Below, piece by piece: positions 1-7,176 of a stretch of DNA of 64,000 nucleotides. The DNA is taken from the NCBI GenBank assembly GCA_017556805.1, contig JAFYMC010000018.1:1-64000 (forward strand). The letters are read 5' to 3'. Each line of letters begins with the position of its first letter. The stretch's first letter is position 1. The notes under the pieces are model-generated. The model was not told where the DNA came from, made no database searches, and saw nothing but the letters and a program-made list of their open reading frames with translations. Position numbers and translations under genes: made by a program. Source of the DNA: Lachnospiraceae bacterium (lineage in GTDB: Bacteria > Bacillota > Clostridia > Lachnospirales > Lachnospiraceae).

Positions 1-138
1 AATACATTGGTTAGTAAGTATTCTGTTGTATCTTGCGCAAGAGTACACTATTTCGTGGTCAATGAAATAGGACTAGAACATCAAGAAACCCTTTATTTTA
101 CTAGCTTTCCTGTTGTTGCTCCCATTATAACTCGTGAA
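1..138. other. Unidentified DNA abutting the broken end of spoIVB
   Basis: This AT-rich stretch takes the place of the 3' end of spoIVB. Its plus strand is open in frame 1 from the window edge to a TAG at about 172-174, running into spoIVB; at this length that could be chance. It contains a 12-base perfect palindrome (TCTTGCGCAAGA, 31-42). I recognise neither the peptide nor the DNA. It could be the end of a mobile element, a rearrangement junction or an assembly edge. Confidence 0.4.
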
Positions 139-1293
139 CATGCCCTGGACGATACCGCCGGTGAGTTCCAATAGTTCTTCGTCGATGATTTTGATTACCA
201 GGCCTTTCGCATGGTTTTTGTTGGAGTAGTCCACTTGTTGGATTTCGATTTCGTATTCGTTTACGGTTCCGTTTATTTCACATAGTATGGTTGCTTTTCC
301 TTTTTTTACCTCTTGCTTAAAGCCGACTTCGCAGTATCTGTCGCCGGTTTTTAGCTTACAGTTTTCCTTTACGGTTCCGAAGATTCCCTGGGCTGTGTTT
401 TTGATTACGGTTCCCAGGCGTTCGTCCTCGGCACGATGGATAACACCGCTTAGCTCACCCGGTGTTCCCGGTTCTCCTTTGATGATTCGAAGGATTTCCG
501 CATCGTAGGCATTGCCGCCGTCTACCTCTAAAAGCACTCCGGTATCCACATCCGTAATTCCATGGCCCAGAGCCCCGAATTTCCCCTCTGTAGTAATATA
601 CGTCAGGGTTCCGATTCCCTGGGTGTCATCCCGGATCCAGGTGCCGATTTTGTAGGAACCGTCTGCGGTCCGGACCGGGGTTACCGCAGTTTCCGTAATT
701 TCCTTCCCGCGGCGAATTTTACAATGAAGCACACTTCCGTCAGACTCTGCCAACAGTTTTATCATGTCTTCCTTTTCCGTCATGGTTTGTCCGTTTATTT
801 CCAAAATATAGTCACCGGATTTTAAACGATTTTCGGCAGGCTCATAGGTCATTTTATCCTCACCGGTTACCGTTGTGGTTCCCAAGACCAAAATTCCGTC
901 GGTTTCAATATGAAGTCCGATGGCCGAGCCTCCCACCGCTACACTCTGAGGGGAAACCGCCGATATTTCTACCTTCTTTAACGGAACGATTCCGAACAGT
1001 TTGACCTCCATGGTCATGCTGGTCTTTTCGGAGGCTTCCATCGTTATGGCATCCGACAAATCGATTTTCATACTTCCTTTTTCCAGCGGCTCCCGATTAA
1101 CCTCCACTACGCCTACACTTTCCCCTTCTATTTTTGCAGAAAAAGGTAGCCGGAAGGAAAGCTCTTGTTCCTCTCCCGTGATGATTGTAATCTTCTCCGG
1201 AAGACTATCCCTATAATAATATATCCCATATCCCAGCAAAACCATTATGTTCAATACCAGCGCCGCCACCAACCAACTACGATACTTTTTCAT
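73..1293 (-). CDS. spoIVB: SpoIVB family sporulation serine peptidase, interrupted at the catalytic serine
   Basis: SpoIVB is a mother-cell-side signalling peptidase, secreted from the forespore, that cleaves SpoIVFA to trigger pro-sigma-K processing. Visible parts are an N-terminal membrane anchor (about residues 8-27), a PDZ domain (about 110-205) and most of the S55 peptidase domain, including the GHGITD motif with the catalytic His. The conserved run GGIVQGM is present, but the expected SGSP that supplies the catalytic Ser is absent. After Met385 the frame continues for 21 unrelated residues and stops at TAG. The encoded protein should therefore be inactive. The gene follows recN in the same direction, as in other spore formers; spo0A would normally lie beyond the left edge. 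The family assignment is firm; the cause of the break is unknown. Confidence 0.9.
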   Translation of the reverse strand: MKKYRSWLVAALVLNIMVLLGYGIYYYRDSLPEKITIITGEEQELSFRLPFSAKIEGESVGVVEVNREPLEKGSMKIDLSDAITMEASEKTSMTMEVKLFGIVPLKKVEISAVSPQSVAVGGSAIGLHIETDGILVLGTTTVTGEDKMTYEPAENRLKSGDYILEINGQTMTEKEDMIKLLAESDGSVLHCKIRRGKEITETAVTPVRTADGSYKIGTWIRDDTQGIGTLTYITTEGKFGALGHGITDVDTGVLLEVDGGNAYDAEILRIIKGEPGTPGELSGVIHRAEDERLGTVIKNTAQGIFGTVKENCKLKTGDRYCEVGFKQEVKKGKATILCEINGTVNEYEIEIQQVDYSNKNHAKGLVIKIIDEELLELTGGIVQGMFTSYNGSNNRKASKIKGFLMF

Positions 1294-1414: not shown

Positions 1415-1452
1415 AATAGTATGCGTAAGAACAAATAATTCAAACTAACTTT

Positions 1453-3256: not shown

Positions 3257-6200
3257 CTATGGTGCAATGACTCGTACGGTACAGGTTAGTGTACGGCCGT
3301 TTACACGGGCCTCTACGGTAGCCGTTCCCGAACCACGGGAGGTCAGATTACCGTTCCGTACTTCCACCACTCTCGGATTGGTGGAATACCAACGCACCGT
3401 GGAGGTAGCTCCCTCTACATACAACGCCACACCGGTGGAATAATAGTCCATCACAACCGACGTACGGTTCAGACCTACTACTATTACATTAATCACTGCC
3501 TTCTTACCGGAATCCATCATTACAATTACACTGGCATTTCCCGGTGCAATCGCAGTCATCTCACCGGTTACCGCATTCACTCTTACAATGGACTCATCGG
3601 AAGAGGTCCACATCATGGAGTCTGTGGTATTGGCCGGTGTCGCCTTAGCAATAACCGTCTTCTTTTCACCCGGTGCCATCACCACCTCGTCCACCATTGT
3701 GGTCACTCCGGTTGCCGGAATCGGTGCAATAACCGTTACATAACATTTACAATACTTACCGCTGCTGTCTCTTGCTTCCGCCGTAATCCATGCGGTACCA
3801 GGAGAAATTGCGGTCACTACGCCATCGTCATCTACCATTGCAATTTCGGAATTATCCGACTTCCAGGACGGCGTTTTATAAGTCGCATTGGCCGGACGAA
3901 TGGCCGCCTCTAACTGGAAGGTATTGCCCTGAATTAACGTAATGGAGGTATAATTCATGGTCATACCGGTCACTTCCGTTACGACTCTGACTTCACAGGT
4001 AGCCTCTACATCGCTTCCGTCAAGAGCCATGGCAGTAATCGTCGCATAGCCGAGAGAAATACCCTTAATCTTACCGTTCTTATCTACCGTACAAACACTC
4101 TCATCGCTGGAACGCCACTCGATGTCTTTATCGGATGCGGTGGAATTGGTAATCTCTGCCTTTAACTGGAACGTCTTGCCAAGCCCCAGCTTATACTGTT
4201 CCGGCGTAATCTTAATCTCGGTTACTTCCTCAATAACGGTAATGATACAAACCGCATTGTATCCGCCGTCATCGGTCTTACACTGAATCACAACCAGACC
4301 GCCCTGCTTTGCGGTTACCTCACCGTCCTTGTCAACGGTAGCAATCTCCTCATCGGAGGAAGACCAGTACACTGCCGTATTGCTGGCCGTTGCCGGAGTA
4401 AACTCCGTATACAGCTGAAGCTTTTCACCTACATCCAAGGTTGCCTTGTCCGGCGTAATCTCAAGCCCCGTTACCGCCTGCAATACCGTAAGCTTACAGT
4501 ATGCGGTAGCACCGTTATCCGTCTTTACCATAATAATGGTCTGACCCGGATTCTTCGCCGTCACACGTCCGGTGGAAGATACGGTAGCGATATTCGTATC
4601 CACGCACTCCCATACCAGGCCTTCTTTCGTAGCATTTGCCGGTGTCAACACCGGATCCAGATAAAAGTACTCACCTGCATTCATGGTAAGATTGTTTACA
4701 GAAAGCTTAACATTGGTCGGTTTCTGCTTTACTACAATCGTACAAAGGTCCATATAAGAACCGTCAATCGTCTTAATAATAATCTCTGCCTGACCCACAC
4801 CCTTTGCGGTCAACATACCGGTGGCATCAACCGCCACAACCGCCGTATTGGTGGAGGTCCAAAGTACCTCCGGCGTGCTGGCATCGCTCGGCGTTACCAG
4901 ATAGGTCATACGATAATTCTCACCCACGTACATTTCTTTGGAATCGATATCCAGAGAAACGCCGCTGACTGCCTTTAATACCGTCACATTACAGAATGCC
5001 TGTACATTCGGATTGTCTACGGAAGTACAAATAATGGATGCGGTACCGGCTGCCTTCATGGTAACAAGACCGTTATCCGACACCGTAGCCACATTGGTAT
5101 TGGAGGACTTCCAGGTCACTGCCTGATTCGTTGCATTATCCGGCTTAAGGGTTGCGCGAAGCTGCACCTTATTACCGATTCGCGAGGTAACCTCTGTCTC
5201 CGATAAAGTCATACTTTCTACCGGCTGTAACACCGTCACACTACAGAAGCCTACCACTACATTATCCTGGTTAATTGCGGAAATCACGGCATTACCGCCC
5301 GTAACACCCTGTATCGTCACGGAAAGCTTACCTGCCTCCGTAATCTTCACAATTTCTTCATTGGAGGAAACCCATTTTAAGGATACACCCTTTAAGGAAC
5401 TCGGCTTCACCATCGCCTGAATGGTCTCATACTTGCCTATTCCAAGGGAAATCTCCTTCGGATCCAGCGTCACCTGCTCTACGGAAGTCTGTACATACAC
5501 CGTACAGGTAGCGGTCTTCACAATACCGTTAATGGTTTGCTTTGCGGTAATAACAGCAGTACCTTCCTTTACACCGGTTACCAGTCCGTTTTCCACCTTT
5601 GCGATTCTGTCGTCGGAAGAACTCCAATATACCTCCTCCAAACGATTGGTCAGGGTCGGCTCCAAGAGAATCGTTCCCTTTGTATTAATGGTCACCTCGG
5701 TATAATTCAGCTGAATACCGTCGATTACCGTAACTTCGATGGTAATATTCGGTACACCGCCCGCATACTCACCATCACCGCCGGTCTCGAAATTTCCGCT
5801 GTTCTTGTAGGTAAGAGTAATCGTAACCGGAGTCAGAGAACTGTTCTTTGCCGTAATCACACCGGTGGTCGGGTCTACCGCAGCCACATTGGAATTGGAA
5901 GAAGAAAAGGCAAACTGTCCTGCCTCCGCAATATTGGAGTTATCAATAATATTATAGGTATCTCCCACATTCATGAGGAGCGACTTATCACTCAAACCGT
6001 ATAAAACAACGATTTCCGCTTCAAAACTCGGAACCGCATTGTTTCCGATATAATCCTTGTGGGCATACGCACGTACCACATAGGTACCTGCCTTTACTCC
6101 GGTAAAATTCACGCTGCCGCTGTATTCGTTAATCGCATATTTCAACACGGCACTGTCGGAAGAAAGCTTCTTCTCCGTAGGCTTTCCCTTCACGGTAATC

Positions 6201-7024
6201 AGCTGGGAAACCTCCCAAACCAGATTGGAGGCCGATTGTCCGTTTATGTAAATCATGAAATTGTCACTGCGGGTCTCCATGGAAATCTTATCCTTGTAAC
6301 CGACATAATCTTTCTGCTCCGTAAAGGAACCCACCGGAGCCACAACAACCGGCTGGGATTTCTGCATCGTCTTGGAATTCTTTCCCACGGTACGGGTGGT
6401 TACCACGATTTCCGTATAACCGGCTCCCACAGCGGTTACATTACCTTTCTCATCCACGGATGCAACCAACGGATTGGTAGAAGTCCAGTCTACCTGTACA
6501 TTATCAATCTCCGTATAATCCACATACTTTAACACTGCCTGCTTCGTTTCGCCGATTTTATCCAGCTTAATAATCTTATGACCGGCATAGTCAATGGTAG
6601 TAAAATTATCATTGGTAAAATCCAGTCCCACCTTTACAAGACAGGTAATTGCAAAATTGTACTGTCCGTCGGATACCACTGCCGTAATGGTAGAATAACC
6701 CGGTCCTTTACGCACCAGCTTTGCCATACCCTGAACGCCGGTATCCTCACAAACCACAACGCTCTCCTCGGAGCTGTGGAAGGTGACCGTAGCCGTTACC
6801 GGAAGACCCTCCGTAGAATCCTTCGGCTCTACATTCAACATAGCATTCAGAGTTCTTAATTCGATTTCTTCTCCCGACTGCACATCCGTGGCATTGAAAT
6901 CAAACTGATATCCCATGGTCGTGGCCGCCTCGGACTTCTTCGGCGCATTCGCAAAAATCGAAAAAAGGGCGCACAAAAGTAACGCCACTGTATATATCTT
7001 AAATGACTTATTCCCCATTTTCAT
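3257..7024 (-). CDS. Secreted protein with about twelve Big_2 (bacterial Ig-like) repeats
   Basis: The 1255-residue protein begins with a signal peptide (charged MKMGNKSFK, hydrophobic core, cleavage after about SEA). The rest is a chain of roughly twelve Big_2 domains of about 85 residues, each recognisable by a W-S-S/T-N/D core, a V-A-x-V strand, a G-x-V-T-A turn and a G-x-A-x-I strand. No LPXTG, SLH or choline-binding anchor is visible at the C-terminus, which ends in the last Ig strand. I chose the ATG at 7022-7024 because the AAGGAGGA site abuts the earlier ATG at 7028-7030 but is 6 bases from this one. Such proteins are usually cell-surface structural or adhesive; the specific role here is unknown. 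Confidence 0.85.
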   Translation of the reverse strand: MKMGNKSFKIYTVALLLCALFSIFANAPKKSEAATTMGYQFDFNATDVQSGEEIELRTLNAMLNVEPKDSTEGLPVTATVTFHSSEESVVVCEDTGVQGMAKLVRKGPGYSTITAVVSDGQYNFAITCLVKVGLDFTNDNFTTIDYAGHKIIKLDKIGETKQAVLKYVDYTEIDNVQVDWTSTNPLVASVDEKGNVTAVGAGYTEIVVTTRTVGKNSKTMQKSQPVVVAPVGSFTEQKDYVGYKDKISMETRSDNFMIYINGQSASNLVWEVSQLITVKGKPTEKKLSSDSAVLKYAINEYSGSVNFTGVKAGTYVVRAYAHKDYIGNNAVPSFEAEIVVLYGLSDKSLLMNVGDTYNIIDNSNIAEAGQFAFSSSNSNVAAVDPTTGVITAKNSSLTPVTITLTYKNSGNFETGGDGEYAGGVPNITIEVTVIDGIQLNYTEVTINTKGTILLEPTLTNRLEEVYWSSSDDRIAKVENGLVTGVKEGTAVITAKQTINGIVKTATCTVYVQTSVEQVTLDPKEISLGIGKYETIQAMVKPSSLKGVSLKWVSSNEEIVKITEAGKLSVTIQGVTGGNAVISAINQDNVVVGFCSVTVLQPVESMTLSETEVTSRIGNKVQLRATLKPDNATNQAVTWKSSNTNVATVSDNGLVTMKAAGTASIICTSVDNPNVQAFCNVTVLKAVSGVSLDIDSKEMYVGENYRMTYLVTPSDASTPEVLWTSTNTAVVAVDATGMLTAKGVGQAEIIIKTIDGSYMDLCTIVVKQKPTNVKLSVNNLTMNAGEYFYLDPVLTPANATKEGLVWECVDTNIATVSSTGRVTAKNPGQTIIMVKTDNGATAYCKLTVLQAVTGLEITPDKATLDVGEKLQLYTEFTPATASNTAVYWSSSDEEIATVDKDGEVTAKQGGLVVIQCKTDDGGYNAVCIITVIEEVTEIKITPEQYKLGLGKTFQLKAEITNSTASDKDIEWRSSDESVCTVDKNGKIKGISLGYATITAMALDGSDVEATCEVRVVTEVTGMTMNYTSITLIQGNTFQLEAAIRPANATYKTPSWKSDNSEIAMVDDDGVVTAISPGTAWITAEARDSSGKYCKCYVTVIAPIPATGVTTMVDEVVMAPGEKKTVIAKATPANTTDSMMWTSSDESIVRVNAVTGEMTAIAPGNASVIVMMDSGKKAVINVIVVGLNRTSVVMDYYSTGVALYVEGATSTVRWYSTNPRVVEVRNGNLTSRGSGTATVEARVNGRTLTCTVRVIAP

Positions 7025-7176
7025 AAGCATTCCTCCTTGGTTTTCTTCAACCTGAACTATATATCGGTTGTTTTTCAGGAAAAATTAATAGCTTTATACA
7101 AAATATAGCAGTTTTTTTTGACATTCCTGTGTCATTTTTGTGAAGTTTCCGTCCATATTACGTTCTATTTTACCTC

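Follow-up and report, generated by a model that had tools for sequence, protein, structure and literature searches.

The question raised by this locus is why spoIVB, the gene of a late-spore-development protease, stops exactly at the motif that carries its catalytic serine. By forming spores, many Clostridia of the gut persist outside the host and pass from one host to another. The window is the whole stretch of DNA that was analyzed, 64,000 nucleotides of the Lachnospiraceae bacterium contig JAFYMC010000018.1, and its genome is called G000 here. An open reading frame at 73-1293 (minus strand) encodes SpoIVB; it matches the Peptidase_S55 profile over positions 2-176 of 210 (E 3e-59) and covers positions 3-364 of the 402 in TIGR02860, with no match beyond. 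The frame consists of a truncated 5′ part of spoIVB at 139-1293 (minus strand, 385 codons), with the PDZ domain and most of Peptidase S55 and without the catalytic SGSP, and of a foreign tail of 21 residues plus a stop codon, taken from the open reading frame list, at 73-138 (minus strand). It reads GGIVQGM-FTSYNGSNNRKASKIKGFLMF-stop, and the Met codon at 139-141 is the last host codon. At the position of the break, all 12 spoIVB loci from relatives read QGMSGSP (GGIVQGMSGSP in eight and NGIVQGMSGSP in four). The preliminary description, which held that the gene is cut at the catalytic serine motif and that similarity is lost after GGIVQGM, was right on both counts. The break falls exactly after codon 139-141, and the same 138 bases adjoin the same codon in nine other genomes, so the break is not a chance one. 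In terms of divergence, the pairwise dN between the spoIVB of the window and six same-genus copies was 0.11-0.18, about the same as the 0.12-0.18 among those copies, and the synonymous sites are saturated, so that dN/dS gives no test of relaxed selection on spoIVB.

Our data indicate, with a probability of roughly 0.88, that bases 1-138 of the window are the left end of an ICE inserted by a serine recombinase at a TG in spoIVB. This left end (1-138, minus strand) forms the element part of attL and is truncated at base 1, where the contig ends; in the nine other genomes it always follows the spoIVB sequence GGNATG. A pattern made of SpoIVB TGGIVQGM followed by two A/T bases (which never encode serine; breaks before other bases are missed) was searched over the genome_contigs collection (84,980 genomes per its description). 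Eight matching stretches were obtained, all of them matched by PF05580, and in seven the bases of the window follow the same ATG, while the eighth (L125 in G047) has a different left end. The seven carriers from this search are MAGs from the ruminant hindgut (colon, cecum or rectum of water buffalo, goat, water deer and roe deer). Among 397 genomes of the family, searched at the DNA level, three had the left end (the window, G157 and G175). Over 129-138 bases each, the ten copies have a single variable site (T in five, A in five), and each of the ten carriers has different host sequence in the 24 bases ahead of the join. Ends this similar in ten genomes suggest that the element moves from cell to cell, perhaps by conjugation.

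The first 150 bases of the window, compared with phage and plasmid DNA, gave one 24-base chance match (E 0.5) and none, respectively, and of 41 genomes searched at the DNA level (E up to 1) 24 had matches, which outside the window's own place were all short and at E 0.009 or worse. No viral sequence matched a 27-mer taken from the left end, and the single Rfam match near the left end was far under its gathering score. Among 32 viral matches one was a genuine SpoIVB (L149), and it is intact; six matches from a further viral search were unrelated sequences. The different left end in G047 (L184, contig C64) belongs to another element that occupies this spoIVB site and has TTCAC and TATAAT at identical positions of its left end. 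Its body encodes RepA_N, ParA and ParB and does not match the G045 element, so two or more kinds of element may insert at the spoIVB site.

Only 138 bases past the break are visible, because base 1 of the window is also base 1 of contig C18 of G000 (37 contigs, 86% complete). Among the 74 contig ends of this genome there are 11 pairs with exactly 141 bases in common, and bases 1-141 of the window fit an assembly fork of that kind. Nine of the ten carrier contigs end shortly past the ATG, after 138 bases (five contigs), 137 (one), 132 (one) or 129 (two), and the tenth, in G045, continues into the element, its left end running on for 15,540 bases. With overlaps of 141 bases, the stops at 138, 132 and 129 represent 3, 9 and 12 host bases in common with another carrier, with the breaks at codon third positions; the stop at 137 does not fit this simple count. 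The edge of the window thus looks like an assembly fork, and its cause is probably the presence of the same element in several hosts of one sample. The assembly edge that the preliminary description had offered as one of its options is therefore real as well, and the element itself explains it through the 141-base overlaps. Metagenome assemblies hide such an element, since the contigs break exactly at its join.

When the eight pattern-search genomes and G000 were searched with PF05580, 5′ halves of spoIVB were found in nine of nine, 3′ pieces on other contigs in four of nine (G045, G046, G047 and G048), and a second, full SpoIVB in none. Ahead of the 3′ halves of carriers come the end of a serine recombinase gene and ...TTGACACGTGACTG; in G045, G046 and G048 the sequence before this half is ...CTTGACACGTGACTG, again with the recombinase gene end. 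Both halves are present in G175, and only the 5′ half was found in G157. In G000 the PF05580 search, which did recover 3′ halves from four of the other eight genomes, gave the 5′ half only, and a 37-residue query for the end of SpoIVB (run without a control) gave no match. The missing end of spoIVB, for which the preliminary description proposed a search, was thus not found in the incomplete G000, a part of what would refute that description by its own account, but was recovered behind the element in three of the seven pattern-search carriers and in G175. The spo0A gene of G000 is on contig C9 (matching positions 1-260 of 262), and the right end of C9 matches DNA adjoining spoIVB in G003, G007 and G006, which probably places C9 and C18 on either side of the gap. 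The 3′ piece in G047 (L171, C21:50521-50637) carries an in-frame TAG and comes from a bin named Gastranaerophilales; this could reflect decay of the gene or an error of sequencing within a mixed bin, and the last 20 kb of its contig had no match to any protein of the G045 element, recombinases included. G168 and G253, which have a full spoIVB as well as a 3′ piece, were considered as examples of an empty and a filled site in one genome and rejected, as the sequences differ; the full spoIVB there comes from a contaminating contig or is a second copy and does not represent an empty site.

Comparison of the two joins points to the site of recombination. The attL join reads ...GGNA-TG-TTCACGAGTTATAAT, with ...CA-TG-TTCAC in the window, and the attR join reads ...TTGACACGTGAC-TG-AGY/TCN GGN, with ...GAC-TG-AGY/TCN in G045, G046, G048, G175 and others. 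The putative 2-bp crossover core is TG at 139-140 (minus strand), common to attL, attR, attB and attP, and in attP it is flanked by the arms CGTGA and TCACG. The short direct repeat anticipated at both joins would be this very short core. When the host flanks of G045, G046, G048 and G175 were joined by script, the frame was open through SGSP, with 37-40 codons to the end.

The body of the element can be read in G045, where contig C10 1-15540 makes up the left piece and contig C6 1-73079 (TG core included) the right one, together 88.6 kb. The two pieces have no exact end overlap, and we infer that they form one element of 88.6 kb or more. Pfam matches include a conjugation set (MobA/VirD2 relaxase, NikA/MobC, T4SS coupling protein, TraG-type ATPase and NlpC/P60) and, in addition, a Toprim/DUF3991 protein, an actin-like protein, a reverse transcriptase, an ECF-type sigma factor and MazF/PemK. 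The element also encodes a surface protein of 1791 aa (SpaA/thioester, LPXTG), regulators and quorum-sensing proteins (AgrB, a GHKL kinase and LytTR regulators) and DUF6033 proteins. The region L174-L176 (G045:C6 35127-64442) holds cargo: Agr-type quorum-sensing genes (AgrB, the GHKL kinase, LytTR regulators) and three or more functionally uncharacterized DUF6033 proteins. The content of the element in G000 is carried over from G045 through the 138 shared bases. The element can probably spread by conjugation.

Three tandem large serine recombinases lie at one end of the element (G045:C6 68089-73013), beside the target gene, and the third stops 66 bp short of the first codon in the 3′ half of spoIVB. 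The Resolvase and Recombinase domains are above the Pfam cut-off in all three, and the zinc ribbon is above it in two and below it in the third. The triplet is also present in G253, G175, G168, G430, G429 and MT836038; in G253 and G175, 3.1 kb of the recombinase end are in common at 91% DNA identity. A DUF6870 protein directly precedes the triplet in three lineages (G045, G429 and G168) and is only a candidate for the recombination directionality factor. The recombinase gene that the preliminary description proposed to look for between the two halves does exist in relatives, at the element end beside the 3′ half; in G000 no match to the third recombinase was found at E ≤ 1e-80. Its broader proposal, an element with site-specific recombinases splitting spoIVB, holds for the serine recombinases and for a mobile element at the catalytic serine motif.

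In ten further loci, a related third recombinase, 48-94% identical to that of G045, likewise ends next to a 3′ piece of spoIVB. In the family sample (397 genomes, E ≤ 1e-80, at most three candidates scored per genome), relatives were found in eight genomes. Those beside a spoIVB 3′ piece have 94% (G253 and G175) and 56% (G168) identity, and the loci fetched for five relatives at 32-36% identity have no spoIVB end. Among the left-end carriers within this sample, G175 was matched by the recombinase search and G000 and G157 were not. Two matches were obtained from 391 genomes of the class (E ≤ 1e-120), both in spoIVB and both in one genus of another family. MT836038 (human faeces, 48% identity) and the IMG/VR loci L204, L207, L216 and L217 end in spoIVB. 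Of 15 viral_contigs loci at 51-64% identity, four are in spoIVB, five are without it (each with at least 760 bp after the recombinase gene) and six end within 190 bp, too early to show what follows; 29 more distant viral loci showed no spoIVB end. A single clade for all spoIVB-targeting recombinases was unsupported by the recombinase tree.

Several of these records carry viral labels. MT836038.1 (L196, L197), L204, L207, L216 and L217 are labelled Bacteriophage sp. or IMG/VR virus and carry a host spoIVB 3′ piece, and among them the triplet is seen in MT836038, G429 (the same as L204) and G430 (L207). They are probably ends of integrative elements, not phage genomes. Such labels on related ends are what a prophage in place of an ICE would lead one to expect; however, G045 has a relaxase, a coupling protein and a T4SS ATPase, and none of the 20 G045 proteins scanned with Pfam, a part of its set, belongs to a phage structural family. 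A prophage is therefore very improbable. Even harder to credit is an assembly chimera, that is, unrelated DNA joined to spoIVB at a contig end. The break does lie 138 bases from a contig end that fits an assembly fork, and in eight of the other nine carriers the contig likewise stops no more than 138 bases past the join, but the join is identical in nine other genomes, lies 15.5 kb inside a contig in G045 and has a matching right-hand counterpart. This explanation was dropped on account of the repeated identical independent joins.

Excision of the ICE would have a second consequence. When the element ends of four carriers were joined by script, the product contained TTGACA and TATAAT at a spacing of 17, a match of 12 out of 12. 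The best promoter matches elsewhere were 9-10 of 12 in attL, 9-11 in attR (spacer 19) and 8-9 in attB; attR thus resembles a promoter as well, which counts against the reading. The TATAAT at 124-129 of the window (minus strand) is the -10 half of the promoter that the excised circle would complete, and the TTGACA (-35) half, at the other end of the element, was read in relatives, not in G000. The TATAAT is at the same distance from TG in the left end of G047, and of the 11 right ends read, several of which are closely related, 10 have TTGACA before the core and L204 has TGAACA. The joined ends of the circle may act as a working promoter. The circle junction attP, searched in viral_contigs as an exact 24-mer, gave no matches, and a looser pattern gave 23 that resemble ordinary promoters, with no recombinase motif in the 700 bases upstream.

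The timing of spoIVB expression bears on what excision could achieve. Upstream of the gene, CATACTA (1417-1423, minus strand) is present in seven of seven same-genus upstream regions (window included) and absent in G012, another genus; we take it to resemble the -10 element of the forespore sigma factors F/G. In addition, a stretch at 1384-1423 (CATACTATTAGGGAAC...GTTCCCT) is conserved between recN and spoIVB in seven same-genus copies and is perhaps a forespore-type promoter followed by a hairpin. Elsewhere in the window, positions 3257-7030 encode a 1257-aa protein with repeated segments that are Ig-like in appearance. In the accounts consulted, B. subtilis SpoIVB is made under sigma-F and sigma-G, C. 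difficile spoIVB belongs to the sigma-G regulon (PMC3789822), and SP-beta excises in the mother cell only and is kept in the spore (PMC4191935). Mother-cell excision would not help an element in spoIVB, since spoIVB is read in the forespore. Carriers may therefore be blocked while the element is in place, or excision may take place before septation or in the forespore.

The events at the ICE can be envisaged as follows. A large serine recombinase, most likely the third of the triplet, would act on the TG-centred site of the element circle and on the TG of ...GGN-ATG-AGY/TCN-GGN... in the host spoIVB. The inserted state would leave SpoIVB without its catalytic serine and the host unable to finish spores, and excision would restore spoIVB exactly; spore formation in these hosts thus probably runs to completion only after the element has excised itself. 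Circularization would build a strong promoter driving the left-end genes (actin-like and mobilization), which would tie transfer-related expression to excision. If this is true, a reversible switch-off of a late-spore-development protease at its catalytic serine would decide which strains can sporulate.

The relation of the element to sporulation can be read in two ways, both of them refinements of the insertion itself. The insertion may be parasitic, with spoIVB used only for DNA that is conserved across Clostridia and sporulation regained only in the rare cells that lose the element. We lean toward this reading: conserved-gene targets suit a broad host range, streptococcal ICEs with recombinase triplets disrupt mutT, traG and hsdM (PMC4701971, in the parts available), and the same element end occurs in ten genomes, seven of them ruminant-hindgut MAGs. 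By itself, however, it leaves unexplained why diverged recombinases in two families have a sporulation target. Alternatively, the ICE may be excised by a programmed signal in sporulating cells, as with skin, rebuilding spoIVB when needed. Excision would have to precede septation or occur in the forespore, with the circle kept, which the actin-like, ParM-related protein of the element might achieve, or re-integrated. The target is indeed a sporulation gene, recombinases 48-94% identical to that of G045 retain it, both halves are unbroken in four carriers in which precise excision would restore the frame, and gin in gerE, with three recombinases and a non-phage layout, is described as excised in sporulation (PMC5595907). 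On the other side, the near-identical left ends point to recent spread, so the unbroken halves prove nothing; the 3′ piece of G047 carries an in-frame TAG, and triplet-recombinase ICEs also disrupt non-sporulation genes in the published examples (PMC4701971). Programmed excision is possible but on balance doubtful. Still less likely is its fullest form, in which a family of ICEs takes the catalytic-serine codon of a forespore gene as its target address and links its departure to the decision to sporulate: excision in the future spore would at once rebuild spoIVB and complete the circle promoter for segregation and transfer genes. If true, this would be a germ-line, not a mother-cell, gene rearrangement.

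The ICE in spoIVB can be compared with several known systems. The circular form of Tn4451/Tn4453 reportedly forms a promoter for TnpX, as Lyras and Rood are said to have described in 2000. As far as these transposons are documented here, both systems have a promoter completed by joining of the element ends; that of Tn4451/Tn4453 serves the recombinase gene, whereas that of the spoIVB element would face the left-end genes, away from the recombinases. The circle promoters of ICEclc and ICEKp1 provide further precedents in the account available (PMC13023037). No earlier description of an element in spoIVB was found in the portion of the open-access literature (PMC) covered. Within the sections at hand (PMC4701971), the streptococcal serine-integrase-triplet ICEs resemble the spoIVB element in having three same-direction recombinases at one end, a conjugation module, a gene-disrupting insertion and very short repeats (2-8 bp; here TG), but their targets are mutT, traG and hsdM, as opposed to spoIVB in gut Clostridia. 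The gin element in gerE of Bacillus cereus is, like the spoIVB element, non-phage, has three serine recombinase genes and splits a sporulation gene. In contrast, gin as reported measures 28.6 kb, has no conjugation genes and lies in a mother-cell gene, and its excision was shown experimentally (PMC5595907). Finally, skin in sigK and SP-beta in spsM are likewise site-specific and split a sporulation gene; SP-beta, as presented in the available text (PMC4191935), is a phage that excises only in the mother cell, whereas spoIVB is read in the forespore (PMC3789822).
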